Source: Thioclava marina (lineage in GTDB: Bacteria; Pseudomonadota; Alphaproteobacteria; Rhodobacterales; Rhodobacteraceae). Taken from it: a stretch of 64,000 nucleotides of DNA. The DNA is taken from the NCBI RefSeq assembly GCF_002020135.1, contig NZ_MPZS01000002.1, forward strand, positions 186,001 through 250,000. Reading direction: 5' to 3'. Numbering within the stretch: the first letter of the stretch is position 1; each line of letters starts with the position of its first letter. A program made the translations under genes and the position numbers. This document shows, piece after piece, positions 8,623-23,995 of this stretch. Below the pieces are notes generated by a model, which saw only the letters and a list, made by a program, of their open reading frames with translations, was not told where the DNA came from and did not search any database.

Positions 8623-8852
8623 TCTATCTAATAGCGAATGAGCGTAGCTTTATCGAATCCAAAACGCAAAACTATCGTGTTCGACCCGGAGGGTTCGCTC
8701 GCCCTCGATTGCTGGGCACCCGACACTTCCCCATCAGACTGGTCGCTTATCTCTAAGACTTCGACATCCCATTTTGAGCGATACACTCCCCACCCGCTTG
8801 TCAAACACTCAAGCGCTACGGTCTCTGCAGCACCATCGAAAGAGATCAAGAA

Positions 8853-10060: not shown

Positions 10061-10081
10061 CTCCATGGAGCCATTGCGAAT

Positions 10082-10282: not shown

Positions 10283-11538
10283 ATGATCGTGTGCGCCATC
10301 TCGAGGGACGCACCGGCACCATAGCGCTCCCGGTCTAGAGCGTGTCCCATAAGATCTCTGCGGACACGCTCATCCACCCCAGCCGCCAAGAGGCGATCTT
10401 CAAAGGAATGTCGAAGGCTGTAGAGAACATGGTCTTCGGTTTCTCGTAATCCGTTTTCTCGTAAGAACTTGTTGATCGTCGCAGACAGGCCTGGCTTGTC
10501 TCGATATCGCGGAAATCCGTTTCGACACTCGCGCAACGCATCCAAGCTCACTCCAGCGAGTGGAATATCTCGCTTGGCGTTTCGCGTCTTGAGCTGACGC
10601 CCCTCGGGACGGATCATCACATAGGGGACGGCACCTTCCAAACGAATGTGCTGAGGTAGAAGCGCCGCTCCTTCGCTCGGGCGATAGCCTGTGTTGATCA
10701 TCCCGATAAGGACGCAACGAGCTTCGACATTGAGCCCTGCGAGGGCGCCATTCGTGAGAAGCTTGTTACGTATCCAATCACTTGAAAATGGAGGCCTGAG
10801 CTCTGCCTCATCTTCTTTGAAACTCAATCCACCGAGCGGCAGATCAAGCTTCAAGCGTTTGAGTTCATTGACACGCTTGAGAACCTTTCCAAGGTAGGTC
10901 AGATCCTTGTTCGCGGAGTTCGCGGTTAACCCTTCCCGCTCGAGCCTATCTGCCCACCATTGACGGAAGTCGAGCATATCGTCGCGAGTAATCTCATGGA
11001 TCGGCTTGTCGCCTATAACCTCAATGAAGTTCTTCACCGCCTTTATGACCGGATTGCGAGCGCGACGGACTTGATCCTCGCTCTTCCCCCTCATCTCATC
11101 AGACGTGAGCTCCCAGAAAAGCTCCAGGGCGCGGCTAACCTTTAGGCCTGGGTCAGGCAACGTGCCCAATAGAGCGCGACCTTCCTGCGCTCTCGTCTTG
11201 CGCCCTTTCATTGAAATCGCTTCAACACGCGCGATGATATCAGACACGGGTCCGGCGAGCAGATCTTTCGAGGACAAATAGTCGAACCCTTTAGATCCCA
11301 CTAACGTTCGAGCTGCGTCTAGCTTCAGTTCCGAATTGGCACCTCCGCAGGCAAGCAATGCTTCCCACTCCGAGACCTGCTGTCTCCACGCGGCTCCACT
11401 CCTCTCCCCGGCAACAGACTTCGAGTCCGTATCAAGAGAAATCCAAACCGTCTTACGGCTTTCGACCGACGCATATTTCGTTGGAACACGCTTCACGAGG
11501 TAGAGCTTCTCCCCTTTGCCCCTAGCCATTATCGACAT
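10264..11538 (-). CDS. Tyrosine recombinase/integrase of the left accessory block
   Basis: About 424 aa. The N-terminal arm-type region and SAM-like core-binding domain (residues about 120-220) precede the catalytic domain. Active-site residues are visible: Arg in NTGYRPSEGA, the HxxR-type box in YSLRHSFEDRL, His in LMGHALDRE and the Tyr shortly after in RYGAG. The N-terminus (GEKLYLVKRVPTKYA) is the short strand region common in phage-type integrases of this family. I chose the ATG at 11538, 7 bases after GGGGGAG. Its start points at a three-copy 12-bp repeat (11577-11609) and the 14-bp att copy at 11701, so this enzyme probably served an older element at the same site. Confidence 0.85.
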   Translation of the reverse strand: MSIMARGKGEKLYLVKRVPTKYASVESRKTVWISLDTDSKSVAGERSGAAWRQQVSEWEALLACGGANSELKLDAARTLVGSKGFDYLSSKDLLAGPVSDIIARVEAISMKGRKTRAQEGRALLGTLPDPGLKVSRALELFWELTSDEMRGKSEDQVRRARNPVIKAVKNFIEVIGDKPIHEITRDDMLDFRQWWADRLEREGLTANSANKDLTYLGKVLKRVNELKRLKLDLPLGGLSFKEDEAELRPPFSSDWIRNKLLTNGALAGLNVEARCVLIGMINTGYRPSEGAALLPQHIRLEGAVPYVMIRPEGRQLKTRNAKRDIPLAGVSLDALRECRNGFPRYRDKPGLSATINKFLRENGLRETEDHVLYSLRHSFEDRLLAAGVDERVRRDLMGHALDRERYGAGASLEMAHTIIQRVAF

Positions 11539-11576
11539 CACGGATCTCCCCCGTCACAACCCTCAACAACCGAAAA

Positions 11577-11609
11577 TGTGCAGCAGTTTGTGCAGCAAAA
11601 TGTGCAGCA
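11577..11609. repeat. Three direct repeats TGTGCAGCA, 12-bp period
   Basis: TGTGCAGCA occurs at 11577-11585, 11589-11597 and 11601-11609, exactly one every 12 bases, about 40 bases upstream of the leftward recombinase start. The regular spacing suggests a cooperative DNA-binding site: recombinase arm sites, an excisionase site or an operator. Confidence 0.6.
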
Positions 11610-11700
11610 AATCGGCATAGAAGACCGGCGCCACTCGCGCCAATTTCATTATTTTTCCTAGGAAAACAACTGTCTACGCACATTCAACGCTTGCAGCATA

Positions 11701-11714
11701 TGGCGGAGGAGGTG
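11701..11714. repeat. Left attachment site core
   Basis: TGGCGGAGGAGGTG, identical to the last bases of the tRNA-Ser gene at 23906-23919. The match stops abruptly on both sides, as expected for a crossover core. It lies between two recombinase genes that point away from each other. Confidence 0.85.
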
Positions 11715-11836
11715 TCTGCCGACCTAACGTATCACGTCGCATCCAATCGTAAAAAATTCTCCCTTTGTACACAAACAATTGCAAAGGAAGGTGTATCAGC
11801 ATGTTGCAATCGGCAGCTCGCAATTTAATATCCTAT

Positions 11837-11857
11837 GGTGGGTATTATGACGGGTAT
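11837..11857 (+). repeat. Integrase arm-type repeats, left end
   Basis: Two copies of a G(G/A)(T/C)GGGTAT motif, at 11837-11845 and 11849-11857, spaced 12 bases apart and just before the integrase start. The same pair with the same spacing and orientation appears near the right end at 23843-23863, as expected for integrase arm-binding sites on both sides of attP. Confidence 0.55.
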
Positions 11858-11860
11858 TCC

Positions 11861-13183
11861 ATGCCGAAACGGGCGAAGGAACTTTCTGCGCTTGATGTGA
11901 AGCGCGCCAAGCACAACGGTTGCCGCGGGAACCGAATGTTAGCTGTAGGCGGTATATCCGGGCTGCAGCTGCAAATCACGCCAGCCAACGGTAAGACCTG
12001 GATCCTCCGAGCGATGGTGGGAACCAAGCGCCGTGAGATTGGCTTAGGCGGGTATCCAGACGTCACTCTCGCGCAGGCTCGAGAGCGCGCGCGATCCGTC
12101 AGGGAAGAGATTGCCAACGGCAATGATCCGGTTGAACAAAAGCGCGCCGCACGAGCGGCACTCGCCCAAGCTCAAGCGAAGGCGATGACTTTCTGGCAGG
12201 CAGCCGGACAATTCCTTCCGATCAAACAAGAGGAGCTTTCGAACCCCAAGCATGCCGCGCAATGGCGCTCGACGCTCGAAACCTATGTGAAGCCGTTCAT
12301 AGGTGACATTCCTGTCTCGGAAGTGACGACGTCGGATGTTCTGAATTGCCTTCGCCCGATTTGGCTGACGAAAACGGACACCGCGACCAAAGTCAGAGGC
12401 CGGGTCGAAGCGGTTCTAAGCTGGGCAAAGGCAGCCGGATATCGAGGAGGAGAAAACCCAGCCGCTTGGAAAGACAATCTGGACAAACTTCTCTCCAATC
12501 CCTCCAAAATAACTAAGAAACAAAAGTTTCCGGCAATCCAGCTTGATGATGCAACCGAATGGTTTCGCGACGTTCGGGAAGGCAAAGGAATTTCATATCG
12601 CGCGCTGGAGCTTCTCGCCCTCTCCGCACTCAGATCCGGCTCTCTCCGGAATGCTCAGTGGAGTCACATCAACTTTGAGAAGCGCCTCTGGGTCGTCCCT
12701 GCAGAATTCATGAAAGACACCACCGGAACTGGTGGAGAAGAACACCGTGTGCCCCTGACTGAAGACATGCTGGAGCTTCTAAGCCGAATTCCGCGCCAAA
12801 GTGGTAGTGATTTCATATTCACTGGAAGTCGCGGGCCCATCTCAGATGGCACGATCCGGAAAGTGATGGTCACACTGCATGAGAAGCGCATCAAACGTAC
12901 TCAGGAGCAAAGTGAGCACGCATTTGGTTACATCGACTCTCGGAGCAAAAAAATCGCCGTGCCGCACGGACTCCGCTCGACTTTCAGAGATTGGGTCGCA
13001 GAACGAACTGGGTTCCCGAGAGAAATGGCTGAAATTGCGCTGGCCCACACTGTCGGTAGCGAAGTGGAAAGAGCCTATCGCCGGTCCGACATGGTGGAAA
13101 AACGCAGAAATATGATGAAGGCCTGGGGAGACTTCCTGAACGGGCGCCAAGCCGAAAACCTCATTTTCATGACAGGTTCATAA
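11861..13183 (+). CDS. P4-type tyrosine integrase
   Basis: 440 aa. The N-terminal DUF4102 arm-binding domain is clear (LQLQITPANGKTWILR; GLGGYPDVTLAQARERA), then the SAM-like core-binding domain and the catalytic domain with Arg in LSALRSGSLRNAQW, HxxR in PHGLRSTFRDW, His in LAHTVGSEVE and the nucleophile in RAYRRSD. I chose the ATG at 11861 (MPKRAKELSALDVKRAK), the normal start for this family, rather than an upstream in-frame extension. It catalyses integration and excision of the island at the tRNA-Ser 3' end. Its stop overlaps the next start by one base. Confidence 0.93.
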   Translation: MPKRAKELSALDVKRAKHNGCRGNRMLAVGGISGLQLQITPANGKTWILRAMVGTKRREIGLGGYPDVTLAQARERARSVREEIANGNDPVEQKRAARAALAQAQAKAMTFWQAAGQFLPIKQEELSNPKHAAQWRSTLETYVKPFIGDIPVSEVTTSDVLNCLRPIWLTKTDTATKVRGRVEAVLSWAKAAGYRGGENPAAWKDNLDKLLSNPSKITKKQKFPAIQLDDATEWFRDVREGKGISYRALELLALSALRSGSLRNAQWSHINFEKRLWVVPAEFMKDTTGTGGEEHRVPLTEDMLELLSRIPRQSGSDFIFTGSRGPISDGTIRKVMVTLHEKRIKRTQEQSEHAFGYIDSRSKKIAVPHGLRSTFRDWVAERTGFPREMAEIALAHTVGSEVERAYRRSDMVEKRRNMMKAWGDFLNGRQAENLIFMTGS

Positions 13184-14004
13184 TGGCAGAAACCCAAGAC
13201 ATATTTCCTGCCAGCGAGGGAGACGGCTTCGAGCCATATCGCGAAATCGCCCGCTTTGCCGAGTGTGACGAAGAAGACGTCTACTACGCGCTCATTGGAA
13301 TAGAGCCGCCGGAGTGGAGCAACCGACAGCACCGCAGGCTCGTCGGCGATCATGTTAAAGCACTCAATCGAGCAGTGAAGTCCGCATCAGACCTTCTGTA
13401 TGCGCTGCGACAGCTCCCCCCCGATGAGACCCAATCTCTTGTGCGGTCAGGCGCTGCAACAGTCCCGCAAATTGAAAAGTTGCTTGCAGAGCTACAGGGG
13501 GGCGAGACCTTCTATAACGAATGGCATGGCAGACGGAGCGCCTCTGGGGGCCGCGAGCCAGCTGCATACGAGATTGCGGAAGGGGTTCGGCGCCTCTTTC
13601 GACGTTTGAAAAGAAAGATCACCTTCGGTCAGCAATATGATGGCAGCCCTTCGGGAGCATTTTGTCGGACAGTCGAGGTGGCAATTGCTGCATTTGGCGT
13701 GAGGGCGAGTTGGCGTGGACCAGCCGAGGAGGCGGTGAACAAAACGCGGGAGATAGAGCGTCGGCACATTCGCCTGGTTGAGAATGCAGCGTCGAAATTA
13801 CCTGGTGACGATATCACTCCAGACCCTTGCCTCGTGATCGAGTTCGAAGGCGATAACGTATGCCTGAAATTATCTGACTTTCCGGAAAAACCACCCCTGA
13901 AATTGCGTCAGAAACATTTTGCATCAGGGAAGGAGATCAAAAAATTCGCAGAAAAATGGTCTTCTACTACAAGGGCTTACATGTCTCATACGGAATCAAA
14001 TTGA
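13183..14004 (+). CDS. Unknown 273-aa protein coupled to the integrase
   Basis: The ATG shares its A with the integrase stop (TAATG), so translation is probably coupled. It is a soluble, charged protein with no signal peptide or membrane segment. The N-terminal 60 residues are acidic and aromatic, the middle (residues about 110-170) carries the basic stretch RRLFRRLKRKITFG, and the C-terminal part ends in a Lys-rich region. I do not recognise any domain. Position next to the integrase at the distal end of the island is a usual place for cargo such as defence genes, but that is only a positional inference. Confidence 0.75.
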   Translation: MAETQDIFPASEGDGFEPYREIARFAECDEEDVYYALIGIEPPEWSNRQHRRLVGDHVKALNRAVKSASDLLYALRQLPPDETQSLVRSGAATVPQIEKLLAELQGGETFYNEWHGRRSASGGREPAAYEIAEGVRRLFRRLKRKITFGQQYDGSPSGAFCRTVEVAIAAFGVRASWRGPAEEAVNKTREIERRHIRLVENAASKLPGDDITPDPCLVIEFEGDNVCLKLSDFPEKPPLKLRQKHFASGKEIKKFAEKWSSTTRAYMSHTESN

Positions 14005-14079
14005 TTTTTTTTCGGTTCGCATTTTTCGTTTTTTGAGGATCAGGCCAATCGTTATCGCATCTAAACGAAAGGATGCGAA

Positions 14080-14256
14080 ATGTATCTGTCTGACAAGCAA
14101 GCTGCGGCCCGATTTAGCGTTAGCCGTATCACCATTTGGCGCTGGGCACGCGAAACTGATTTTCCTTCACCGATCCAACTTTCTCCCGGCTGCACACGCT
14201 GGAAGCTTGCCGAAATCGAAGGCTGGGAATCTCAACGCCCGAAGGTCGCAGCATAA
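14080..14256 (+). CDS. AlpA-family regulator, 58 aa
   Basis: The product MYLSDKQAAARFSVSRITIW... has the winged MerR-like helix-turn-helix of AlpA/excisionase proteins, with the characteristic FPSPIQLSPGCTRWKLAEIEGW C-terminal half. These proteins activate integrase/excision or early genes of P4-like satellites and prophages. The ATG at 14080 follows GGATG/GAAAGGA at a short distance; the upstream 75 bases are AT-rich with a T-run and the repeat AACGAAAGGATGCGAA, a likely promoter region. Confidence 0.88.
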   Translation: MYLSDKQAAARFSVSRITIWRWARETDFPSPIQLSPGCTRWKLAEIEGWESQRPKVAA

Positions 14257-14360
14257 GAAACCCCCGCTCAGTCATGGACCGGGCGAGGGCGATAAATCTT
14301 ATCTGCAGCACAGTCGAGATTAGCCAATCGAACCCGGTCCTTCAAGAAAAAGGATCGAGC

Positions 14361-14717
14361 ATGAAACAGAAATCGAAATTCCCGCCCCGGAACGCAAAGC
14401 GCGTTTTTCGCGTGGCGGATCTCCCCAAAGACCGCAACCCGGCTCAATTCGAAATCATCAACGCGAACAGTGAGAGCCGTGTTGTCATCCTCGACAAGCG
14501 CAGGCGTCAGATCCTCGAACTGCTGGCAATCGGCCCCGTCTTCTGCGCCTCGCCTGTTCGGATTTCCGATATCGTCTTCGTCCTCAAGCGCGAAATAGGG
14601 TTGGAAGTGGAAACCGAGTTCTATCCCGGGGACCGAGCAACCGGTGCCGGAGATTTCGGGGTTTACTTCCTCCGTAGCCGGGTGCGCCGCCTCGATGGCG
14701 GGGAGGCGGCGGCATGA
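14361..14717 (+). CDS. Winged-helix domain protein, 118 aa
   Basis: The ATG at 14361 follows AAAAAGGATC. The N-terminus is basic (MKQKSKFPPRNAKRVFRVADLPK), and residues about 50-95 (DKRRRQILELLAIGPVFCAS then VRISDIVFVLKREIGLEVE) fit a winged helix-turn-helix often seen in small regulators of alphaproteobacterial prophages. The stop overlaps the next start by 4 bases (ATGA), beginning a tightly packed replication operon that runs to 16847. Confidence 0.75.
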   Translation: MKQKSKFPPRNAKRVFRVADLPKDRNPAQFEIINANSESRVVILDKRRRQILELLAIGPVFCASPVRISDIVFVLKREIGLEVETEFYPGDRATGAGDFGVYFLRSRVRRLDGGEAAA

Positions 14718-14815
14718 ATTCGCTTCGGCTTGCATATCTCCGTCGTCTGTATGGCCTCTCTGGGGCTATCGCCTGCGCTCTCGCTCAACTCGCCTATGGG
14801 GAGGGTCGCGAATGA
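14714..14815 (+). CDS. 33-aa protein within the replication operon
   Basis: The product MNSLRLAYLRRLYGLSGAI... ends LAYGEGRE. Peptides of this length and pattern recur before primase genes in alphaproteobacterial prophages. It overlaps the preceding stop and the following start by 4 bases each (ATGA), strong evidence that it is translated. It is basic at the start with a short hydrophobic middle. Function unknown. Confidence 0.7.
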   Translation: MNSLRLAYLRRLYGLSGAIACALAQLAYGEGRE

Positions 14816-15672
14816 CGAACGCACGTGAAATCACCCTTTCCTTCCAAGGTGATTGGCATGGGAACCACGGGAGCGCGCCTTGCCCCGTGTGTCAGCCCGA
14901 GCGCCGCAGTGATCAGCGCGCTCTTTCCCTACGCGATGAAGGCGGACGGCTGCTTGCCTTTTGCCACAAGGGCGGGTGCGAATTCCGCGACATCGTCAGA
15001 GCGTCCGGCTTGAATGCCGCACAGTTCATCCCGGATCCAGTAGCCCAGCGCGAAGCCGAAACCAAACGTGTCGAATATGAGCGCGCGAAGCTCGACAAAG
15101 CGCGAGCCCTCTGGTGTCGCTCGCTTCCGATCAACGGCACGAAAGGTGAGGATTACCTTCGCAATCGCGGCATCAAGTGTGATCTGCCGCCGTCCCTGCG
15201 CTGGGCAGCTGATGTTTATCATGGACCCAGCGGACGCTGGCATTCCGCAATGGTGGCGGAGGTCAGCACCGGAGCGGTGCATCGCACCTACTTCGAAAAA
15301 AGCGGCGCGCGCATTTCAGGCACCGCAAAGATGATGCTGGGGCCGTGCGCTGGTGGCGCCGTCGCACTCTCCGAAGGCGCCGGGCCGCTCGTAGTCTGTG
15401 AGGGCATCGAGACCGGCCTGAGCCTCCTCAGTGGACTTCTCGACGGCGCTGCGAAGGTCTGGGCGTCTCTCTCGACCTCAGGGATGAAAGCCCTGCAGCT
15501 TCCTGAGGACCCAAGCGAGCTGATTGTGGCGACTGATGGCGATGAAGCTGGCGCAGATGCTGGCCGGGTGTTGGCTGAAATCGCTCATGCGCGCGGATGG
15601 AATGTATCACTGCTTCCCGCGCCACAAGGGCAGGACTGGAATGACGTCCTGCGGAAAAGGAACGCCGCATGA
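14812..15672 (+). CDS. Toprim domain primase-like protein
   Basis: 286 aa. An N-terminal zinc-ribbon (CPVCQPERRSD ... FCHKGGCEF, four Cys) resembles a CHC2-type DNA-primase finger. A central DUF7146-like region follows, and a C-terminal Toprim domain has the Glu in LVVCEGIETGLSL and the DxD-type acidic pair in IVATDGDEAGADAG. It probably synthesises primers for element replication with the helicase encoded next. The start ATG overlaps the 33-aa gene stop, and its end overlaps the helicase start by 4 bases, so these form one translational unit. Confidence 0.88.
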   Translation: MTNAREITLSFQGDWHGNHGSAPCPVCQPERRSDQRALSLRDEGGRLLAFCHKGGCEFRDIVRASGLNAAQFIPDPVAQREAETKRVEYERAKLDKARALWCRSLPINGTKGEDYLRNRGIKCDLPPSLRWAADVYHGPSGRWHSAMVAEVSTGAVHRTYFEKSGARISGTAKMMLGPCAGGAVALSEGAGPLVVCEGIETGLSLLSGLLDGAAKVWASLSTSGMKALQLPEDPSELIVATDGDEAGADAGRVLAEIAHARGWNVSLLPAPQGQDWNDVLRKRNAA

Positions 15673-16847
15673 ATGCCTCGATTCCGCAACCGATCCAGTT
15701 CGCGCCCGCGAATTCGCCGCTTCCATTGAGGGCAACACCTTTCGAATGGCGCGATCCTGCATCCCTACCCGCTCGGCGGTGGGTGTATGGTCGTCACCTG
15801 ATCCGACGCTTCACCAGTGTAACGGTCGCCCCGGGAGGGGTCGGCAAATCGTCACTGACAATCTGCGAAGCGCTCGCGATGGTTTCAGGGAAGAAGCTGC
15901 TTGGTGACGAAATTCCAGCTCCGCTCCGAGTCTGGATACTCAACCTCGAAGACCCACGCGACGAACTCGAGCGCCGGATCGCCGCGACGATGCTGCACCA
16001 TTCGATTTCGCCGGAAGCTGTCGTAGGTCGGCTCTTCGTAGACAGTGGACGAGAGAGAGGTCTTTGCACTGCCACGCAAGGCCGCGAAGGCGTTCATATC
16101 AATGTGCCTGAGGTTGAGGCGCTTGTCGCGGAAATCGAAGCGCGACAAATCGACGTGCTGATCGTTGATCCGTTCGTCTCATCGCATCGCGTGAACGAAA
16201 ACGACAACGGCGCGATTGACCTCGTCGCGAAGGAGTGGGGCCGGGTCGCGGAGCGTTGCAACTGCGCAATCGACCTCGTCCATCACACCCGCAAACTCGG
16301 CGGCGAAGAGGCTTCCTCGGAGAATAGCCGGGGCGCCGTGGCCTTGCTGGGCGCGGCGCGTTCGGCCCGTGTCCTGAACCGAATGAATGATGCTCAGAAA
16401 GCGGATGCGGGCGTTGCCGATGATCCTCTCACCTATTTCAGTGTCGAGCGCGACAAGGCAAACCTCGCGCCCCCCGGAAAGCGCGTGTGGCGGCGCATGG
16501 TCTCCGTGAACCTGGCTAACGGCGATAGTGTGGGGGTTACGGAATCCTGGGAATGGCCTGACGATTTCGACGGCATCAGCGTCAAAGACCTCCTCTCGGT
16601 CCAGAACGCGATTCAAGCGGCGTGGGGCGCCGGAAGCCCACCGCGCGCAAGTAACCAGGCCAAGTCGGCTTGGGCGGGTCTGATCGTCGCAGACGTTCTC
16701 GGCCTCGATGCCAACCGCGACAAAGCCAGAATATCGCGAATGCTGAAGACATGGATCGGGACCGGCGCGCTCCGCGAGGTTCAGCACGAAGACGCGAAAC
16801 GCAACAAACGGCCATGTCTGGAGGTAGGAGAATGGGCAACTGTGTAA
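15669..16847 (+). CDS. RepA-like helicase ATPase (AAA family)
   Basis: 392 aa. The P-loop is VAPGGVGKSSLTI (about residues 53-65) and the Walker B region is IDVLIVDPFVSSH. Downstream, DLVHHTRKLGG and the SRGAVALLGAARSARVLNRM stretch are typical of RSF1010 RepA-like hexameric helicases found in plasmids and prophages. It probably unwinds DNA at the element's origin, in partnership with the Toprim protein. A GC-rich inverted-repeat region follows at once (16850-16960) and is a candidate origin. Confidence 0.88.
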   Translation: MNASIPQPIQFAPANSPLPLRATPFEWRDPASLPARRWVYGRHLIRRFTSVTVAPGGVGKSSLTICEALAMVSGKKLLGDEIPAPLRVWILNLEDPRDELERRIAATMLHHSISPEAVVGRLFVDSGRERGLCTATQGREGVHINVPEVEALVAEIEARQIDVLIVDPFVSSHRVNENDNGAIDLVAKEWGRVAERCNCAIDLVHHTRKLGGEEASSENSRGAVALLGAARSARVLNRMNDAQKADAGVADDPLTYFSVERDKANLAPPGKRVWRRMVSVNLANGDSVGVTESWEWPDDFDGISVKDLLSVQNAIQAAWGAGSPPRASNQAKSAWAGLIVADVLGLDANRDKARISRMLKTWIGTGALREVQHEDAKRNKRPCLEVGEWATV

Positions 16848-16849
16848 CC

Positions 16850-16960
16850 CCCACCACCTTGAAATGCGAGGTGAGGCAAGGTGTGGCAGTGGGGCGCTTT
16901 TTCCGACCTGCCCCACTGCCCCACTACCCCACCCCTAAAGGGGTGGTGAGGTGGTGGGGC
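16850..16960. repeat. Long GC-rich inverted repeat region after the helicase
   Basis: CCCCACCACCTT (about 16851) is inverted as AGGTGGTGGGG (about 16947), and between them runs of CCCCAC(T/C) and GGGGTGGTG face each other around a TAAA centre at 16931-16934, making a large imperfect hairpin. GTGGGGC occurs several times. It could be a terminator for the replication operon or an origin with single-stranded folding potential. Overlapping short frames here do not look coding. Confidence 0.5.
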
Positions 16961-17073
16961 ATATGGAGCGGTCATCGGTCGGCTCCGGAAGGTGGGGCAG
17001 TTCCGAGCACAGGATCTGCTGCCGAAGTTCAATCAAGAGAAAATCAAGCTATCGAGCGAAAGGAATAATACAG

Positions 17074-18888
17074 ATGGCAACCTTCGATGAAATCATGGCG
17101 ATAGCCAAACGAGCGGATGAAGCTGGGAGAACTGCCGATGCGCAGGCTCTGGTGGATATGGCGCGAAAGATGCTTCCCACGCAGCCAGAAAGCGGAAAGA
17201 GCGTGGCGAATTCCCCGCAGCCTTCCGCCGCCGCCAAGACTTGGCTGATCACGGCACCAGACGGGCGCCAGTTCAAGGTGTCCGGTGAAAATCAAGCCGG
17301 GGCGCTGGCTGCGCTGCAGAAGATGTTTTCTGGGCCGGAAGCAGGGCAAGCGAGCGGAGCGCCCCCGGTGAATCTCGACGCAATTGCGCAAGAGGCACAA
17401 CAGAGAAAGCGCTCTGCGAGCAGCTATGCTGGCCTCATGGCGGCGGCGCGGGAAGCTTATAAATATGGTGATACCAACAAAGCGCGAGAGCTTGCCAAAC
17501 AGGCCTTGGCAATCCGTGATGGATCGCCAGCAACACAGGCCAAAGGTAGCGCGTCCCCTTCCATGGTCGGCGGCATGAGCGGCGCTGCCACTGATGGGGC
17601 TTTGTTCGGCTTCGGGGATGAATACCTTGCAGGCCTTTCAGCGGCGCTTGGCGTTCAACCGGACGGGAACGGTGGGGCGAACTGGTTCGACTACTCGCGG
17701 CCCATCGGAGACCGCTACAACACCGCTCTCGATGCGATCCGCAAAGAACAGGGCCAATTCCAAGCGGCGCACCCCGGCGCTTCGATGGGCGCTGAAATCG
17801 CGGGATCACTGATCGGCCCCGGAAAGGGCGCTGGAGCCTTCGTAAACGGTGCAACGAAGACAAGCGGGCGCATTGCCCGTGGTATCGTCGCAGGCGGCGC
17901 TGCAGGCGGCCTATACGGCTTTGGAGAAGGCGAAGGCGGGACGACTGCCCGTGCATCCTCCGCGCTAACGGGTGGCGTGATCGGAGCCGCCAGCGGTGGC
18001 CTCCTAACGGGCCTTGGAGAAGGCATTGCCAGAGCAATTCCCAAGATTGCTAATTCGCCCAGCGCGAAGAACGTTGTGCCGACGCTCGAAGCCATGCGGG
18101 AGAAGGCAGGGCAGCTCTACGAAGCCGCCAAGGAATCCGGCGGTGTCGTCAACGAAGGACGTATGAAGCTTCTGGTCGGTCAAGTCTCACAGACGCTGCG
18201 CAATGAAGGCTTCGACCCTCAACTGCACCCACGCATCGCGGCCACGCTCACCAGGCTTCAAAATGAAGCTGGCCCGAAGTCTCTCGCGGATATGGAAATC
18301 CTGCGCAGGGTCGCAAGCAATGCCGCTGCCAGCTTGCAACCCGACGAGCGGAGGCTTGCTGGCAAGGTCATCGATCATATCGATAACACGGTGGCGCGCT
18401 TGTCCGGATCTGAAGGGCTGGCGGAGGCCCGCAAGGTATGGGCGCAGATACGGCGCCTGGAGACCGTTGAAACAGCCATCGAGAAGGCGAGCCTGACCGA
18501 TGACTTCGCGCGGGGTCTACGAACTCAGTTCAAGGCCCTCCTGCGCAATCCAAAGCGGCTTCGCGGCTTCTCAGGTGCTGAGCTCAAAGCAATCGCTGCC
18601 GTCGCAAAGGGAGCGCCGCTTGAGCATACACTCCGAGGCCTCGGAAAGCTCATGGCTCCCACAGGGATCAGCGGGGCGGCTCTGACGGGAGGCGCAGCGT
18701 TTGGGGGTGCAGGTCTGGGGGCTGCTGCCATTCCCCTCGTTGGGATGACAGCGAAATCCGCAGCCAACGCAATGACGAAGGCGAGCGCTCAGCAGGCCAG
18801 AGACTTCATCGCAAGCGGTGTGGCAAGGACAGCTCCGCGCAATGCTCTCGCCGCGACTACGGTCATTCCTGGCACGATGGCACAGTGA
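17074..18888 (+). CDS. Phage virion/ejection-like protein, 604 aa
   Basis: The ATG at 17074 follows GAAAGGAA. The N-terminal 60 residues have a TPR-like helical pair (MAIAKRADEAGRTADAQALVD), followed by a WLITAPDGRQFKVSG segment resembling the short GYF/PDZ-like module of phage proteins, then a second helical pair. The middle (residues about 160-330) alternates glycine-rich hydrophobic stretches (GAATDGALFGFGDEYLAGL; AGGAAGGLYGFGEGEGG; GGVIGAASGGLLTGLGEG) as in internal virion or DNA-ejection proteins of tailed phages. The C-terminal part is helical, ending with another Gly/Ala stretch. No capsid genes accompany it, which is unusual. Confidence 0.7.
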   Translation: MATFDEIMAIAKRADEAGRTADAQALVDMARKMLPTQPESGKSVANSPQPSAAAKTWLITAPDGRQFKVSGENQAGALAALQKMFSGPEAGQASGAPPVNLDAIAQEAQQRKRSASSYAGLMAAAREAYKYGDTNKARELAKQALAIRDGSPATQAKGSASPSMVGGMSGAATDGALFGFGDEYLAGLSAALGVQPDGNGGANWFDYSRPIGDRYNTALDAIRKEQGQFQAAHPGASMGAEIAGSLIGPGKGAGAFVNGATKTSGRIARGIVAGGAAGGLYGFGEGEGGTTARASSALTGGVIGAASGGLLTGLGEGIARAIPKIANSPSAKNVVPTLEAMREKAGQLYEAAKESGGVVNEGRMKLLVGQVSQTLRNEGFDPQLHPRIAATLTRLQNEAGPKSLADMEILRRVASNAAASLQPDERRLAGKVIDHIDNTVARLSGSEGLAEARKVWAQIRRLETVETAIEKASLTDDFARGLRTQFKALLRNPKRLRGFSGAELKAIAAVAKGAPLEHTLRGLGKLMAPTGISGAALTGGAAFGGAGLGAAAIPLVGMTAKSAANAMTKASAQQARDFIASGVARTAPRNALAATTVIPGTMAQ

Positions 18889-18962
18889 CCCCATCCAACA
18901 CAGCTAAGTGCGGCCCATTCGCGGGCCGTGCTTTCAACCATACTCGCGAGATATGAAGGGAA

Positions 18963-19511
18963 ATGCCGATGACCGGAGCGGAGCTTGCAAAGATCAGAAA
19001 AGCCTCTCGTCTCTCGCAGTCGGGCCTCGCTATCAAGGCGGGCATCGGGCGTCACGCTGTGAGCTATTGGGAAAACAAAGCGAAGGTGGATCTGAACTCG
19101 TGGGCGGTTCGGAAGATGGGCGAGATTCTACCGCTGCCGTATTTTGCCACACCAATACGCACGCGCACGGGATGGGGTGTTAGTGGGCATGAGGAATTCA
19201 CTGCATCGATCGAAGCCAAGCTATTGGCAGCATTTGAGCGTGCAGCAGCCAGAGCGGCCAAACGCCGAGTTCGGTGCGGAGCGAAAACGAGGAAGGGCGT
19301 TCCGTGCCGCTGCTTGAGCGAACCAGGGAAGCGTAGGTGCAAGTTCCACGGGGGGCGATCCACTGGACCAAAGACAACAGAAGGGATTGAGCGCATTCGC
19401 GAGGCGCAGCTGCGCCGCTGGCAGGCTTCGCGAGCATCATTGCTGCTCGCGAAGCCCTCCGGCCATGAAGAGACCACGGCGCCCTTAAGGAACCAAGCAG
19501 TCGGTATTTAG
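18963..19511 (+). CDS. HTH protein with HGG-STGPKT motif
   Basis: 182 aa. An N-terminal XRE-type helix-turn-helix (GAELAKIRKASRLSQSGLAIKAGIGRHAVSYWE) is joined to a Cys-containing basic module: RCGAKTRKGVPCRCLSEPGKRRCKFHGGRSTGPKT then EGIERIREAQLRRW. That second module, with its C-x-C-x-C-x-H spacing, is common in small proteins of phages and mobile elements and probably binds zinc. The role could be regulation of the element or DNA recognition. The start ATG at 18963 lies just after GAAGGGAAATGCCG. Confidence 0.75.
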   Translation: MPMTGAELAKIRKASRLSQSGLAIKAGIGRHAVSYWENKAKVDLNSWAVRKMGEILPLPYFATPIRTRTGWGVSGHEEFTASIEAKLLAAFERAAARAAKRRVRCGAKTRKGVPCRCLSEPGKRRCKFHGGRSTGPKTTEGIERIREAQLRRWQASRASLLLAKPSGHEETTAPLRNQAVGI

Positions 19512-19614
19512 AGGTCGGGCGGATCGCTCAGCGGTCACTTATGCCTTTCTCTTCGACATTGGGGTTTCGCGGCCAAGTCTATCGTTGAGACGGCGACGCT
19601 CCACCCTCGATGCA

Positions 19615-20031
19615 TCAAGGCGCATTCCGCTTTTCAGAACACGGAAACGCCTTTGAGAGCGCAGACTGCATCAGCGCCCGCGCCGAATTGTGCCGCGTCT
19701 CGGGATTGTTTCTTAGGTATTGGACAAAGACGTCGCGATATTGCCCAACTGTAATCCCGTCCGGCAGGCAAAAGGAAAGAAGAGCGTCCACTCTTTGGTT
19801 GACTTCTGAGGCAGGGACTCCAGAGACGACGAGAGGAGCTGCGGCCCCCCAGCGCATGCCTTCGACAAGTCCGTCAACGTAGCCAATACAAAAACCTTCC
19901 CTTGCGAGGTCGTCAGAGGCTTCGCAGATAGATAAAATCTCGTTCCCTGTAAGATTTCGCCCAAGGTTTTGAGCTGCCGATGGGATGGCGAAAGCAGTGG
20001 CCATCAAAGTCATTAAACAAAGCTTTTTCAT
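19615..20031 (-). CDS. Secreted Rap1a/Tai-family-like protein
   Basis: 138 aa with a clear signal peptide (MKKLCLMTLMATAFAIPSAAQ). The mature part matches Rap1a/Tai immunity proteins: ILSICEASDD ... REGFCIGYVDGLVEG ... FCLPDGITVGQYRDVFVQYLRNNPETRH ... SKAFPC, with the paired Cys positions kept. In type VI secretion such proteins neutralise periplasmic amidase effectors, but many orphan members have unknown roles. It follows the 79-aa HTH gene by 2 bases in a leftward pair, so it is probably under that regulator's control. No effector gene was recognised nearby. Confidence 0.75.
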   Translation of the reverse strand: MKKLCLMTLMATAFAIPSAAQNLGRNLTGNEILSICEASDDLAREGFCIGYVDGLVEGMRWGAAAPLVVSGVPASEVNQRVDALLSFCLPDGITVGQYRDVFVQYLRNNPETRHNSARALMQSALSKAFPCSEKRNAP

Positions 20032-20033
20032 CT

Positions 20034-20273
20034 CTAATCCTTTCGGATGGTTACCCCCGTTCCGGCGGACATTTGTCCGTCTTCGAGGAACTGAATACCT
20101 CTCGCTTCGAGAGTTTTCCTGATCGCCTCGGCGGTTGAGTGCTGCAAGCCGCTCTTGCCCGTCTCAAAGCGGCTGATCGTCGTGAACGAAACCCCCGCAA
20201 TTTCCGCCAATTCTCGCACGCCAAGCTGTAGTGCTGCGCGTGCCATTCTCACCTGCTCCGGCCTCATCCGCAT
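20034..20273 (-). CDS. XRE-family regulator, 79 aa
   Basis: A compact helix-turn-helix protein (VRMARAALQLGVRELAEIAGVSFTTISRFETGKS) with the typical TAEAIRKTLEARGIQFL tail. It is divergent from the 206-aa gene at 20372 and lies directly upstream of the Rap1a-like gene, so it is a good candidate for a repressor acting on the 20274-20371 spacer. Confidence 0.88.
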   Translation of the reverse strand: MRMRPEQVRMARAALQLGVRELAEIAGVSFTTISRFETGKSGLQHSTAEAIRKTLEARGIQFLEDGQMSAGTGVTIRKD

Positions 20274-20303
20274 ACCTTGTTACATATTTCGCTAACAGGG
20301 TTA

Positions 20304-20338
20304 TTGACAAAGCGCCTACCCTGTATCATATCTATAAC
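20304..20338 (+). promoter_or_regulatory. Candidate promoter in divergent spacer
   Basis: A perfect TTGACA at 20304-20309 is followed by an AT-rich segment (ATCATATCTATAAC, about 20325-20338) that could supply the -10 region for the rightward gene at 20372. No single hexamer stands out at the ideal 17-base spacing. The leftward XRE gene starts just upstream. Confidence 0.35.
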
Positions 20339-20371
20339 ACGGTAAGCGAAAACGCAAACGGAGTTGCCGCC

Positions 20372-20992
20372 ATGACCTACGACCGCACCGCCATCATGAA
20401 AGCCGCCTGGGTGATCGTTCGCCGCTTCCTCGGCCGCACCCGCGAAACGCTGGCTCAGATCCTGTCGCGCGCGCTCAAGCTCGCATGGTGGGATGCAAAG
20501 CAAGAGGCTCAGGTGGCAAAGGCGGTCGCAACGAAGCGCGCCGAAGCGGACACGCTCGCCCAGCGCTCCAGTGCGGATCTCAAAGTCGCAATCGTAGCGC
20601 TCGAAAACACCGATACGCTGGGCGGCGCTGGGCGTGATCGTCTTTCGGATCTGCAAGCTGCTCTTCGCCACGCAGAAGCGCGCGAGGCTGCTGACTACGC
20701 CGCAAAGCGCAAGCTGATAGCGAGCGCCAAGGGACGCTTCGCCTCGATCACCTTCACTAAGAAAGACGGCACGCACCGTGTGATGCGCGTCCAGCCAGCT
20801 ACGCTGCGCCAGCATGTCAAAGGTGCCGATGCCTCCGATGCTGGCCGTAGAGCCGCTGAGACGCGCGCTCAGCGCCATCCCAACCTTCTGCCGGTTTGGG
20901 ATGCCGAAAGGAAGGCGCCTCGCTCTGTGAACCTCGCGACCGTCAGCCAGATCAAGGTGAACGGTGTTACCCATGAATTCTGCGCCCGCTGA
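20372..20992 (+). CDS. Hypothetical phage-type protein, 206 aa
   Basis: The ATG at 20372 follows GGAG at 8 bases and gives MTYDRTAIMKAAWVIVRRF. The N-terminal third is a helical DNA-associated-looking region, the middle is a coiled-coil-like stretch (residues about 55-110), and the C-terminal part (SITFTKKDGTHRVMRV ... VNLATVSQIKVNGVTHEF) looks like a small beta domain seen in many phage hypothetical proteins. Function unknown. It leads a rightward run of small genes to 22036. Confidence 0.7.
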   Translation: MTYDRTAIMKAAWVIVRRFLGRTRETLAQILSRALKLAWWDAKQEAQVAKAVATKRAEADTLAQRSSADLKVAIVALENTDTLGGAGRDRLSDLQAALRHAEAREAADYAAKRKLIASAKGRFASITFTKKDGTHRVMRVQPATLRQHVKGADASDAGRRAAETRAQRHPNLLPVWDAERKAPRSVNLATVSQIKVNGVTHEFCAR

Positions 20993-21035
20993 TCGCAGGC
21001 GCATCAACCAACCGAATAAAATAACGGAGAGAAAC

Positions 21036-21269
21036 ATGCAGACCCAAAGAGATATCCTGAACGAGCTGAATGATGCTCTGGACGCAATGGATGAGACGGC
21101 GAGCCTTCTCGAACTGCTGAGCATGGCGGCGAATGACCTTGGAAAACCCATGCAGGACGCGATTGCGGCTGGCATCTCGCTGACGCAGGACAAGCTGAAT
21201 TCCGCACGAAAGCTGGGGTATGCAGCGGCGAAGAGCATGCGTGATCAACGTATGGAGGCTGCCGAATGA
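21036..21269 (+). CDS. Small hypothetical protein, 77 aa
   Basis: The ATG at 21036 follows CGGAGAGAAAC. The product (MQTQRDILNELNDALDAMDETASLLE...) is acidic and wholly helical, with a basic C-terminus. Its stop overlaps the next start by 4 bases (ATGA). No family recognised. Confidence 0.65.
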   Translation: MQTQRDILNELNDALDAMDETASLLELLSMAANDLGKPMQDAIAAGISLTQDKLNSARKLGYAAAKSMRDQRMEAAE

Positions 21270-21475
21270 ACGACGCGTCTAACACATTCGAGCTTCTGAG
21301 TGGGGCGCAGGCCCTGCGTGCTTTGGCGCGCGACTTGTCGGAACATGGCGCAGGGGAGCCGCTCAGCGCTGAAACGCGTGATCATTTGATCTTCGTCATG
21401 AAAGCCATGGCCGACCGAACCGAAGCGAGTGCTTCAGCGTGGATCGACGCGCTTGAAACAGGCGCTGCTGCCTAA
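21266..21475 (+). CDS. Small hypothetical protein, 69 aa
   Basis: A helical acidic protein (MNDASNTFELLSGAQALRALARDL...) that overlaps the preceding gene by 4 bases, implying coupled translation of a pair. A 7-bp stem-loop terminator follows at 21492-21516. No family recognised. Confidence 0.65.
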   Translation: MNDASNTFELLSGAQALRALARDLSEHGAGEPLSAETRDHLIFVMKAMADRTEASASAWIDALETGAAA

Positions 21476-21491
21476 ACCAGAGCGACTGAGT

Positions 21492-21516
21492 GCCCCGCCG
21501 ATGCGGGGCCTCTTTA
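21492..21516 (+). terminator. Rho-independent terminator
   Basis: GCCCCGC (21492-21498) and GCGGGGC (21503-21509) form a 7-bp stem with loop CGAT, followed by CTCTTT, after the stop of the 69-aa gene. Confidence 0.7.
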
Positions 21517-21535
21517 CGTAAAATAGGCTGATAAA

Positions 21536-22036
21536 ATGAATTCGCCCTACAGCATCAATCGCCAGTGGTCCGACCGATACCTGCCCGAGATACGGCGGAT
21601 AGTCGGCTCACACTTGCTGCAGGTCGCACCTGACCACCTCGATCGACACCACGCCACAGATTTGCTGATGCTTGATGGCCGCGACCTGCGGATTGCAGCG
21701 CGCGTGCGCCGCCCAGGCTATGCCTCCCACTACCCCTACGAGTTCACGATCCGCTCGCAAGTAGCGTCCGGCGCAATGACGGAGCTGGCGAAGATTGTGA
21801 ACGGTGAAGGAGACTGGCTCTTCTACGGACACGCCAGCGAGGATGGTCGCGGGATGGATCTCTGGTGGCTGATTGATCTACGAGCATTCAGGGCGGCGCT
21901 TATCCGGCGTAGTGCAAACGGCTTCCCCATCCGGTGTGGAGACAAGGCCAATGCCGACGGCACCTGTTTCAAATGGTTTGATATTCGCTCGTTTCCGAAT
22001 GAGCCGCCACTGATCGTTGCCTCCGGGCGGCGGTGA
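21536..22036 (+). CDS. Hypothetical protein, 166 aa
   Basis: A soluble protein starting MNSPYSINRQWSDRYLPEIRRIVG, with a compact mixed alpha/beta body: ATDLLMLDGRDLRIAARVRRPGY, the FTIRSQ strand, then GDWLFYGHASEDG and WLIDLRAFRAAL. This pattern (a short sensor of D-L-x-x-x-D plus a strand-rich core) recurs in small phage and plasmid proteins and faintly resembles a PD-(D/E)XK nuclease or Holliday-junction-resolvase-like core, but I cannot assign it. It stands alone between a terminator and a 120-base spacer. Confidence 0.7.
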   Translation: MNSPYSINRQWSDRYLPEIRRIVGSHLLQVAPDHLDRHHATDLLMLDGRDLRIAARVRRPGYASHYPYEFTIRSQVASGAMTELAKIVNGEGDWLFYGHASEDGRGMDLWWLIDLRAFRAALIRRSANGFPIRCGDKANADGTCFKWFDIRSFPNEPPLIVASGRR

Positions 22037-22156
22037 GGGCCTGCAATCGATTGTAGTGACGCTTCGGAACCCATCACGAGAACGCGATCATTATTCTTGA
22101 TCGTAGATAGCAGCCCGCTACGATCCCATGCATTGACTTGTAAGGGAGGGATTCAA

Positions 22157-22339
22157 GTGAAGGTTGTTCTTACGTTTCTGGGTGCTGTATTCGCTCTTTC
22201 GATGCCGCTGCACGCAGTGCCTACCGCAGCTGGGCTAAGCCAAGACGAAATCGCGCATGGCGGCGGCTGCCGGAAAAGCTCGCCTGCCGGGCAATGCTGC
22301 CACATGGACAAGAAAGCGGGGCAGGTGCATTGCCACTGA
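22157..22339 (+). CDS. Small secreted Cys/His-rich protein, 60 aa, GTG start
   Basis: The GTG at 22157 follows GGGAGGG, and the product has a signal peptide (MKVVLTFLGAVFALSMPLHAVP) and a C-terminal cluster GGGCRKSSPAGQCCHMDKKAG ending VHCH. That cluster, with four Cys and three His, resembles the YHYH-like/excalibur-type ends found before or fused to secreted SNase nucleases. Its end overlaps by 10 bases the TTG start of the nuclease gene, so the pair is probably made together. Confidence 0.65.
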   Translation: MKVVLTFLGAVFALSMPLHAVPTAAGLSQDEIAHGGGCRKSSPAGQCCHMDKKAGQVHCH

Positions 22340-22800
22340 GATTCTTTCTGGCTCTTCTTCTTGCAGCGGTTCTTTGTGGGCCGCTGCATGCTCAGACCAT
22401 CACCGGAACCGCCTCCGTAATTGATGGCGACACCATCGACATTCACGGAAACCGGATTCGGCTTCACGCCATCGATGCAATCGAAAGCCGCCAGCGCTGT
22501 CGTTTGCCAAACGGGAAGCTGTGGAACTGCGGCAAGGATGCGGCATTCGCGCTCGCGGATAAGATTGGCCGCGCGCCGGTTTCCTGCAAAGTCACAGATG
22601 TCGATCGATATGGGCGCTACGTCGCAATTTGCCGCCAGAATGGCGAAGACCTAAATGCCTGGCTCGTGCGCAACGGGTGGGCGGTGGCCTATCGTCGCTA
22701 TGGCCGTGATTACGTGCGAGATGAAGATGCTGCGCGGAAGCAGAGCGCAGGCATCTGGGCAAGTGAATTCATGATGCCTTGGGATTGGCGAAAGCGCTGA
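22330..22800 (+). CDS. Secreted thermonuclease (SNase) family protein
   Basis: The likely start is TTG at 22330, giving MPLRFFLALLLAAVLCGPLHAQ, a good signal peptide. The mature SNase-like OB-fold has VIDGDTIDIHGNRIRLHAIDAIE (with the Ca/catalytic Asp and Arg), CGKDAAFALADKIG and RYGRYVAICR, and LVRNGWAVAYRRY. It probably cuts DNA/RNA in the periplasm or outside the cell. Earlier ATG codons in frame lie inside the preceding gene and would remove the signal peptide. No terminator is obvious. Confidence 0.88.
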   Translation: MPLRFFLALLLAAVLCGPLHAQTITGTASVIDGDTIDIHGNRIRLHAIDAIESRQRCRLPNGKLWNCGKDAAFALADKIGRAPVSCKVTDVDRYGRYVAICRQNGEDLNAWLVRNGWAVAYRRYGRDYVRDEDAARKQSAGIWASEFMMPWDWRKR

Positions 22801-22839
22801 GCGCGCGAACGCCAAAACCAAATTCGTTACATCAGAAAA

Positions 22840-23286
22840 CTATGCTGCGGCATCTTCCCATCCGCCCGGCATGTGCGCAAATTTCAAAGTGAGCTCCGTC
22901 ACTCTTCGGTCTGTTTCTGCCAGCTTTTGCATCAAGTCGCGCAGATTTCCGCCATTAATACTTTCGAGGTAGTAACCGGCCAATGCTCGCTGCGCAGGCC
23001 CAGGAATCTTCGTCTCACCCAACTCCCATCGCCTTAGTGTATTTTCCTGCACATCGAGCAGACCCGCCAAAACACGTTGTGAAAGGTCAAGCTCAGTTCG
23101 CAGAAATCTTACTTCAGGACCGGTCATCTGTCGGTTTGCTTTGGCAATAGCCGTTCCGATGAGTTCATGAAGCTCCTCTACAGCAGGAATAGACACAGCA
23201 GGTCCGTAGGGTGTATCGATTGGCTCGATCCCCTCCAGATAAACATTCGGCAATCCGCTCTCGCGGTAGTGATAGCCATTGGTCAT
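22840..23286 (-). CDS. HTH protein, probable antitoxin of the DUF4258 pair
   Basis: 148 aa. Residues about 55-105 (MTGPEVRFLRTELDLSQRVLAGLLDVQENTLRRWELG) form an MqsA/HigA-like helix-turn-helix, followed by a helical tail. The N-terminal part (NGYHYRESGLPNVYLEGI) is the type seen in HTH partners of small toxins. It follows the DUF4258 gene by 9 bases in the same leftward transcription unit, so it probably both neutralises and represses it. DNA target candidate: the palindrome at 23639-23655. Confidence 0.8.
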   Translation of the reverse strand: MTNGYHYRESGLPNVYLEGIEPIDTPYGPAVSIPAVEELHELIGTAIAKANRQMTGPEVRFLRTELDLSQRVLAGLLDVQENTLRRWELGETKIPGPAQRALAGYYLESINGGNLRDLMQKLAETDRRVTELTLKFAHMPGGWEDAAA

Positions 23287-23295
23287 TTTTACCTC

Positions 23296-23637
23296 CTATT
23301 CCGCGCCTCTATTGATCACCGTAACTACGATGGTGTGCGGATCGCTTTCCCGGATCGCACAGACGACATCAATTTCGACACCCGCAGTAACCCCTCTGAC
23401 GGGGGCCACCCATGAAGAATTCTGGTCATCCCAACGAAACTTCTGCGTCACGATGGTGCCACGCCGAAGCACGCGGAGCGCCATTATGCGCGTCACCTCT
23501 CGAGCCTCCATCTGCTCGGCTGCGTGGAGCGTGACGATCATCATGTGATCGAACCCCTTCGCGACCCGCTTGCGGACCTCATCTTGAAACCAAGCAGGAC
23601 TCTTCGGTTTTTGTAATGGAACGACTTTTCCTCTCAT
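23296..23637 (-). CDS. DUF4258 domain protein, probable toxin
   Basis: 113 aa from the ATG at 23637. The C-terminal DUF4258-like part (HAAEQMEAREVTRIMALRVLRRGTIVTQ ... VEIDVVCAIRESDPHTIVVTVI) is the MqsR/RelE-like beta-fold seen in toxins and orphan proteins. Earlier TTG starts exist, but the ATG lies one base from a perfect palindrome, leaving little room for a ribosome-binding site; translation may be leaderless. It is the first gene of the toxin-first pair with the HTH protein. Confidence 0.75.
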   Translation of the reverse strand: MRGKVVPLQKPKSPAWFQDEVRKRVAKGFDHMMIVTLHAAEQMEAREVTRIMALRVLRRGTIVTQKFRWDDQNSSWVAPVRGVTAGVEIDVVCAIRESDPHTIVVTVINRGAE

Positions 23638-23638
23638 G

Positions 23639-23655
23639 CCTACCAATTTGGTAGG
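23639..23655. promoter_or_regulatory. Palindromic operator of the DUF4258/HTH pair
   Basis: CCTACCAA and TTGGTAGG are perfect inverted repeats around one central T, adjoining the DUF4258 start codon. This is the expected place for autoregulation by the HTH partner. Confidence 0.6.
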
Positions 23656-23842
23656 TTGAGCAGGTAAAGGCAAGATGAACGCAACGGAAAATAGTCTTTT
23701 TTCGTTCCTCGATCAGAGGAACTGCGCGCAAAGCGCCACATCTTGCGACCGTCGCAAGATAGGACACAAGCGCTCTGGCAAAGCCGATTCTCGATGCCTG
23801 CGAAAACGAAGTCGACGACACACCAGCAAGCAAAAATCGAAT

Positions 23843-23863
23843 GGCGGGCATTTTGGCGGGTAT
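23843..23863 (+). repeat. Integrase arm-type repeats, right end
   Basis: GGCGGGCAT (23843-23851) and GGCGGGTAT (23855-23863) are direct repeats 12 bases apart, in the same orientation and spacing as the pair at 11837-11857 inside the left end. They lie about 45 bases inside the right att core. Confidence 0.55.
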
Positions 23864-23905
23864 GATGTAAAAGAAGTGGTTTTTCTCAATAAAAACAACA
23901 ACTAT

Positions 23906-23919
23906 TGGCGGAGGAGGTG
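23906..23919. repeat. Right attachment site core
   Basis: TGGCGGAGGAGGTG forms the 3' end of the tRNA-Ser acceptor stem including its CCA (read on the minus strand) and is identical to 11701-11714. The crossover leaves the tRNA intact. Confidence 0.85.
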
Positions 23920-23995
23920 GGATTCGAACCCACGGTAGGCTTTCACCTACGTCGGTTTTCAAGACCGGTGCATTAAACCACTCTGCCACTCCTCC
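23906..23995 (-). tRNA. tRNA-Ser (anticodon UGA)
   Basis: Read leftward it begins GGAGGAGTGGCAGAGTGG and ends with the T-loop GGTTCGAATCC, an acceptor stem matching the 5' GGAGGAG, discriminator G and an encoded CCA (23906-23908). The anticodon loop CUUGAAA gives UGA. The variable arm GTAGGTGAAAGCCTAC is the long form expected for Ser. Its 3' end is the attachment site of the island at 11701-23919. Confidence 0.95.

Follow-up and report, generated by a model that had tools for sequence, protein, structure and literature searches.

A satellite-like island at a tRNA-Ser gene of Thioclava marina with a putative podovirus ejection gene

A 64-kb stretch of the Thioclava marina genome (contig NZ_MPZS01000002.1, here C2, positions 186001-250000; hereafter the window) holds a 12.2-kb island at window positions 11701-23919. 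With a probability that we put at about one half, this island is a complete phage-satellite-like element of podoviruses whose own ejection protein is built into the particles of its helper. An earlier note on this DNA had named an integrase, AlpA, a Toprim protein, a RepA-like helicase and an ejection-like protein among its contents, and Pfam and PHROG profiles together with phage homologues bear out all five.

The ejection-protein homologue

The gene on which this reading turns lies at 17074-18888 on the plus strand and encodes a protein of 604 amino acids (aa). The protein matches phrog_5880 (E 1.8e-18) as well as phrog_21712, and matches proteins from six phage records, among them phiGT1_19, which is annotated as an internal virion/injection protein with weak similarity to P22 gene 16. 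Its identity is 36% over 496 aa to the protein of locus L127 and 29% over 448 aa to that of phiGT1. Four IMG/VR contigs also encode relatives, and in two of these the likeness (64-67%) is confined to the first 33-36 residues. The gene order on these podovirus contigs, with names given by resemblance, is a P22 gp10-like gene, two more ejection-type genes and then the relative of the 604-aa protein. In phages the homologue is the last of three ejection-type genes and stands ahead of the tail fibre; because the phage gene is third in the ejection set, the label "major head protein" attached to phrog_21712 was dropped. The 604-aa protein, which AlphaFold modelled with a mean predicted local distance difference test score (pLDDT) of 45.8, thus appears by homology to the phrog_5880 group to correspond to the third ejection protein of P22-like podoviruses.

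As query, the 604-aa sequence found 3 of 295 family genomes, its own included, and phrog_5880 found 12 of 394. Four of those 12 matches lie in satellite-like elements (the island, G041, G259 and G330) and another four are next to podovirus tail genes (G339, G253, G348 and G232). The matches in G277, G094, G114 and G340 (loci L144, L150, L151 and L152) are in regions where no phage genes were seen.

Profile scans of the island's 18 open reading frames (ORFs) against Pfam and PHROGs, together with searches using 30 phage queries, detected no capsid, portal, tail or terminase genes, so that the capsid, portal and terminase by which a prophage is recognised were not found in it. The 30 structural and terminase queries were drawn from six phages and one prophage. 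None of 37 spans cut from the island and its relatives matched these portal, capsid, terminase, scaffold and tail queries (E <= 1e-3), and in a control all 11 phage or prophage pieces were matched by a query from another phage; profile scans of the related elements covered selected proteins. Of the virion genes looked for, the ejection-protein homologue therefore seems to be the island's only one, and it stands after the replication module without the head, portal and tail genes that would accompany phiGT1_19 and its relatives. This content agrees with the earlier note's description of a satellite or replicating element lacking a capsid. A decayed prophage that had retained integration, replication and a single late gene would equally combine a phage-type ejection protein with an integrase, but we judge it highly improbable: the same compact architecture recurs in many elements at different tRNAs, no other structural gene occurs in the 37 spans, and the frames are intact, with signs of purifying selection.

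Boundaries and the tRNA-Ser locus

The island is enclosed by the 14-bp direct repeat TGGCGGAGGAGGTG, with exact copies at 11701-11714 (the left attachment core) and 23906-23919 (the right core), as previously claimed. Identity between the two copies covers exactly 14 bp and does not extend further to the left or right. Even with one mismatch allowed, the 14-mer occurs at only these two places in the window, where 0.04 matches were expected from shuffled sequence and none of 100 shuffles gave two. The right copy forms the 3' end, with its CCA, of the tRNA-Ser(UGA) gene that served as insertion target, which ARAGORN placed at 23906-23995 on the minus strand (anticodon TGA in DNA) in agreement with the earlier description. 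The left copy sits 160 bp before the integrase gene, and the G+C content of the element is 57.7% compared with 65.3% to its right.

Across the whole genome the 14-mer occurs three times, all on one strand, at C2:172363, 197701 (= 11701) and 209906 (= 23906); the reverse strand holds no copy, and a reversed control pattern had no match genome-wide. Since the genome holds three cores, a lone insertion is ruled out and the island is instead the second unit of a tandem array. The third core lies 25.3 kb further left, and the core at 11701 doubles as the right end of this neighbouring 25.3-kb unit 1.

The tRNA-Ser/dacA neighbourhood was compared in 15 relatives. One exact core was present at the tRNA-Ser(UGA) locus in seven and none in six; G022 has a single core with one mismatch, and in G015 two cores enclose an element of 8.75 kb whose integrase and Toprim genes are homologous. 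In G014 a 514-bp match to the right end of unit 1 (96.7% identity, core included) leads through one core directly into the tRNA; this is the state expected before unit 2, the island, entered, and hence a natural site without it. Taken with the exact cores, it upholds the view that both boundaries can be read from the sequence. The earlier proposal to look for an empty site was borne out in so far as G014 lacks the island; the copy at 11701 proved also to be the right end of the neighbouring unit, giving three cores, yet this does not refute the reading. G001 has an empty tRNA-Ser site as well, because there a biotinyl gene of the chromosome, 91% identical in DNA to C2:166001-166435 over 436 bp, stops about 30 bp from the tRNA. 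G013 also has this end of unit 1 (93.7% over 573 bp), there fused to a tRNA-Ser whose own end differs slightly, and the other coreless relatives presumably have a differing tRNA end likewise.

Related elements in the Rhodobacterales

By gene content and insertion sites the island is a member of a Rhodobacterales family of phage-satellite-like elements. Homologues of its integrase were found in 31 of 41 genomes, own included, at a broad threshold (E <= 0.001), whereas at E <= 1e-12 the Toprim protein matched 80 of 295 family genomes and the AAA_25 protein 12 of 295. In 19 of 30 loci the 3' end of the tRNA recurs as a repeat of at least 14 bp at the opposite end of the element; the tRNAs are those for Ser (four anticodons), Thr (two), Ala, Arg, Leu and Phe. 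Relatives at unrelated sites without the repeat had been named as a test of the island's description, and relatives at other tRNAs were here found to carry a tRNA-3'-end repeat of their own. In 18 of the 19 the far repeat lies just upstream of the integrase homologue, the exception being G244, which was found via AAA_25. Seven of the remaining loci have no tRNA in the retrieved piece and four have a tRNA but no repeat. Among nine further loci such repeats were present in five (T. sediminum, Paracoccus versutus, Oceanicola, P. fontiphilus and D. aestuarii); the T. sediminum element occupies a tRNA-Lys with a repeat of at least 50 bp. Elements measure from about 5.6 to 20.5 kb between repeats. 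In a chance control, 1 of 25 reversed tRNA ends gave a match. A search of plasmids gave no match. Defluviimonas (now Albidovulum) denitrificans belongs to the Rhodobacterales, in which we take the other named genera to fall too.

Clustering of genes from 29 spans placed an integrase in 26, AlpA in 22, a Toprim protein in 22, a DUF3987 helicase in 18, an HGGxSTG protein in 10 and an SNase in six; the island carries AAA_25 where many relatives have DUF3987. Ten of these 29 spans, in which no repeat was found, were cut by hand, as were the eight that bring the total to 37, and G016 was excluded. Weak spots of this set are the hand-cut borders, that exclusion and the lack of an integrase end in three of the eight added spans (P. 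siganidrum, P. litorisediminis and Limimaricola).

A changing set of ejection genes

Matches to ejection genes (E <= 1e-6) occur in 9 of the 37 spans: the island, Defluviimonas denitrificans (G041), G281, G259, an Oceanicola metagenome-assembled genome (G330), T. sediminum, Limimaricola cinnabarinus, P. siganidrum and P. litorisediminis. The count leaves out a P. versutus protein (882 aa, 37% over 88 aa) and one of P. fontiphilus that is of another type. This P. fontiphilus protein, a different large internal-virion-like protein in the same slot (L164:5543-8723), has a hydrolase domain for which a match was found in a structural protein from a Paracoccus podovirus. The ejection gene follows the replication genes and, in the island, G041, P. 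siganidrum and P. versutus, directly precedes an HGGxSTG-type protein. In G259 three ejection-type genes follow one another: a phrog_4287 "DNA ejection protein", a VanY/tape-measure-like protein and phrog_5880; P. siganidrum likewise has a phrog_598 "DNA ejection" gene, an ejB-like protein and phrog_5880 in a row, and P. litorisediminis has two ejection-type genes.

These sets bear on the alternative that the element is satellite-like but uses the homologue to hinder helper or rival phages, as a false particle part or in superinfection exclusion, rather than for its own delivery. A lone ejection protein, such as the island's, cannot make up a complete ejection set alone, and gene swapping would likewise be in keeping with an arms race against changing phages. 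The runs of three ejection-type genes in two elements and of two in another nevertheless suit a working set better than a decoy, and we consider interference rather unlikely.

The ejection gene has been exchanged repeatedly between elements and phages. A tree of 22 ejection proteins (9 from elements, 13 from phages or prophages) requires at least four changes of element/phage label even when only well-supported branches are counted; its limits are the divergence of the proteins and the long branches of three phage rows. The T. sediminum ejection protein clusters with that of phiGT1 (54% identity) and is only 25% identical to the island's over 578 aa, whereas its neighbours are close to those of the island (wHTH147 81%, HTH79 86%, WYL253 86% and orf166 95% identical). 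Because neighbours at 81-95% identity surround an ejection gene at 25%, the gene was replaced in place between the two elements. Such repeated acquisition from phages, at the same place in several elements, speaks against a phage-independent integrative island that is moved by another element's conjugation, by competence or by gene-transfer agents and carries the ejection gene as accidental cargo. No relaxase or conjugation genes, which would mark an integrative and conjugative or mobilisable element, were found among the 18 ORFs scanned. On the other side, helper and packaging genes were not identified, a replication module is present, and spread of a satellite by competence has been reported (PMC13376191). 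Overall we regard phage-independent transfer as unlikely.

A DUF5681 protein often lies just before the ejection gene (L111:7570-8058, L066:7809-8318). It does so in G259, G281, G330, T. sediminum and Limimaricola, and is absent from the island. A role for DUF5681 as a terminase small subunit found no support, as none of four podovirus contigs with ejection homologues had it, in a search whose controls were also blank.

The gene orf166 (21536-22036, plus strand) is a conserved marker of the island's sub-family. Used as queries, three orf166 proteins found 15 loci in genome contigs, mainly of Paracoccus, Defluviimonas, Limimaricola and Thioclava. Six of these (L155, L157, L158, L159, L162 and L166) have ejection genes of the 604-aa family, L164 has another internal-virion-like gene instead, and the other eight are partial, end early or showed no ejection gene. 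Further copies occur in P. siganidrum and P. versutus. Between the island and T. sediminum 91 codons are identical, 64 differ synonymously and 8 have other changes; because synonymous changes so outnumber the others, orf166 is under purifying selection. No match to orf166 was found in phages. Its AlphaFold model has a mean pLDDT of 55.7, and a fold search of the PDB returned no match at E <= 0.001. Sequence searches of the PDB gave nothing useful.

The helper and a possible life cycle

If the island is a podovirus satellite of this kind, infection by a helper podovirus would induce its excision by AlpA and the integrase, and the Toprim primase and AAA_25 helicase would copy its DNA upon that infection. 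AlpA is required for the excision of EcCIMP1 (PMC11773190) and for the PICMI cycle (PMC10803314). The island DNA would then be packaged in the heads of the helper, and the island's ejection protein would become part of those particles, alongside or in place of the helper's; a particle carrying the island would then also carry a protein that delivers, or guards, the island DNA in the next cell. Protection of entering DNA is a second possible use of such a protein; in phage 80alpha the ejection protein gp44 binds and guards the genome ends (PMC7290940).

We further suggest, more tentatively than for the island itself, that a family of Rhodobacterales satellites has a dedicated and repeatedly refilled slot for one to three podovirus ejection genes, by which helper particles would be fitted with the satellites' own delivery proteins.

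Several points weigh against this account. The boundaries, family, tandem array, pre-insertion state, module content and gene exchange are present in the DNA itself; the helper, the packaging and the ejection function are what we infer from it, and no helper, packaging or particle was observed. This genome has no P22-type portal and a single PF03237 terminase match, and no resident helper was found; since a P22-type portal is not resident, a P22-type helper would enter from outside, like the helpers of PICMI. Of the 37 spans, 28 have no such ejection genes, so that the family as a whole does not need them, and IMG/VR yielded no relative of the Toprim protein or of orf166. In the repeat analysis, 131 of 725 foreign pairs shared at least 14 bp somewhere, a count that includes same-type tRNAs and cores and is therefore not a clean control. 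Loss of gp44 from 80alpha left SaPI transduction unaffected (PMC7290940), and an ejection protein therefore need not matter to a satellite. Finally, the satellite definition used for the Streptococcus thermophilus StCI elements excludes viral structural genes (PMC13376191). The island agrees with that definition in having 7-20 kb between repeats, one of them upstream of the integrase gene, and integrase, regulatory and replication modules, and departs from it by its one ejection homologue. Only a strict definition of this sort is ruled out, since other satellite families, P4 and cf-PICI, also encode virion parts.

Comparison with known satellites

The island shares with the PICMI of Vibrionaceae an integrase, a gene after it whose overlap with the integrase gene amounts to one or a few bases, AlpA and a primase, and PICMI likewise lack capsid-remodelling genes and have helpers that come from outside (PMC10803314). 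The two differ in that PICMI occupy a fis site and have a DUF3987/DUF5906 primase where the island has tRNA-Ser and Toprim plus AAA_25, and the compared passages on PICMI mention no ejection gene (PMC10803314). Judged as a PICMI, then, the island has the integrase and AlpA but neither the site nor the primase. The Gram-negative PICI EcCIMP1 is similar in its integrase, AlpA, primase/helicase and lack of identified capsid or terminase genes, and its helper, Kapi1, is a P22-like podovirus; it differs in its E. coli host, and the word "ejection" is absent from the main text of its paper (PMC11773190). The StCI satellite resembles the island in its direct repeats of similar length (16-18 bp), an attachment site upstream of the integrase gene, a size of 7-20 kb and its regulatory and replication modules (PMC13376191). 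At the level of titles and the beginnings of abstracts, in a literature from which subscription papers mostly fell outside the scope, no description of satellites with ejection genes was found.

Other genes of the island and unit 1

The plus strand of the island begins with the 440-aa tyrosine integrase (11861-13183; Arm-DNA-bind_3, Phage_int_M and Phage_integrase), whose start was set by the amino ends of relatives, the longest frame beginning at 11765. The start codon of the next gene, for a 273-aa protein with no assigned function and a homologue in G041 (13183-14004), overlaps the integrase stop by 1 base. There follow a 58-aa AlpA family regulator or excisionase (14080-14256; PF05930, E 5.6e-8; phrog_66), a small winged-helix-like protein of uncertain start with homologues in related elements and only a weak HTH_91 match (14274-14717), a Toprim/DUF7146 primase recognised by Pfam and PHROGs (14812-15672) and the 392-aa AAA_25 (RepA-like) helicase (15669-16847; PF13481, E 1.4e-40). 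Beyond the ejection-protein homologue lies the gene for a 182-aa protein with a helix-turn-helix (HTH) and HGGxSTG (18963-19511; NF041373).

On the minus strand are a Rap1a-family protein with a signal-like amino end (19615-20031; PF18602, E 9.9e-21) and the 79-aa HTH regulator HTH79, which is kept in related elements (20034-20273). Divergent from HTH79 runs a WYL_2-like gene (20231-20992, plus; weak PF10902; phrog_1086 and phrog_2267) of uncertain start, with an internal ATG near 20372. The plus strand continues with frames of 101 aa (20964-21269) and 69 aa (21266-21475), neither with an assigned function, and, after orf166, with an 80-aa small protein that has homologues in related elements (22097-22339) and an SNase-family nuclease with a signal-like amino end (22294-22800; PF00565, E 1.2e-13). 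Near the right end, on the minus strand, an HTH gene (22840-23286) adjoins a DUF4258 gene (23296-23673; PF14076, E 1.7e-8); the two (22840-23673) resemble a toxin-antitoxin pair, with DUF4258 as the possible toxin and the HTH protein as the possible antitoxin. PADLOC gave only weak matches among nine element proteins.

Unit 1 extends leftwards beyond the window and has its own, different integrase at its right end (10264-11541). Across 1-11714 and L004 (C2:172363-186000) it carries type I restriction genes, a trypsin-like protease, a DUF927-like primase-helicase, two cold-shock genes, a transglutaminase, and IS110 and IS5 transposases, several of these names resting on resemblance. Its rightmost 3 kb recurs in G014 at 96%. 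Homologues of its protease (L004:13253-14698) at 39-45% occur in five of the nine further satellite-like loci, and the two kinds of element therefore share genes. The left end of the array is less simple: 5.9 kb (L004:436-6362) that include a 1247-aa autotransporter frame separate the chromosomal match from the first core. No core-like site was found at the junction left of this stretch with up to three mismatches allowed, and it is perhaps an older insertion.

Significance

The tRNA-Ser array shows clearly, from a natural case, how two units whose integrases differ use one short common core. Satellites are known to act on head size, on the choice of packaged DNA and, recently, on tails. An element that has ejection genes but neither head nor tail genes would show entry into the next cell to be another point of conflict between satellites and phages. 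Because these genes swap between similar elements and relate to known podovirus proteins, the likely type of helper can be guessed from sequence, and the guess is open to test. If the proposed role is correct, a particle carrying such a satellite would differ from the helper's own in how its DNA enters the cell, and these Rhodobacterales satellites would take over ejection, not the capsid.

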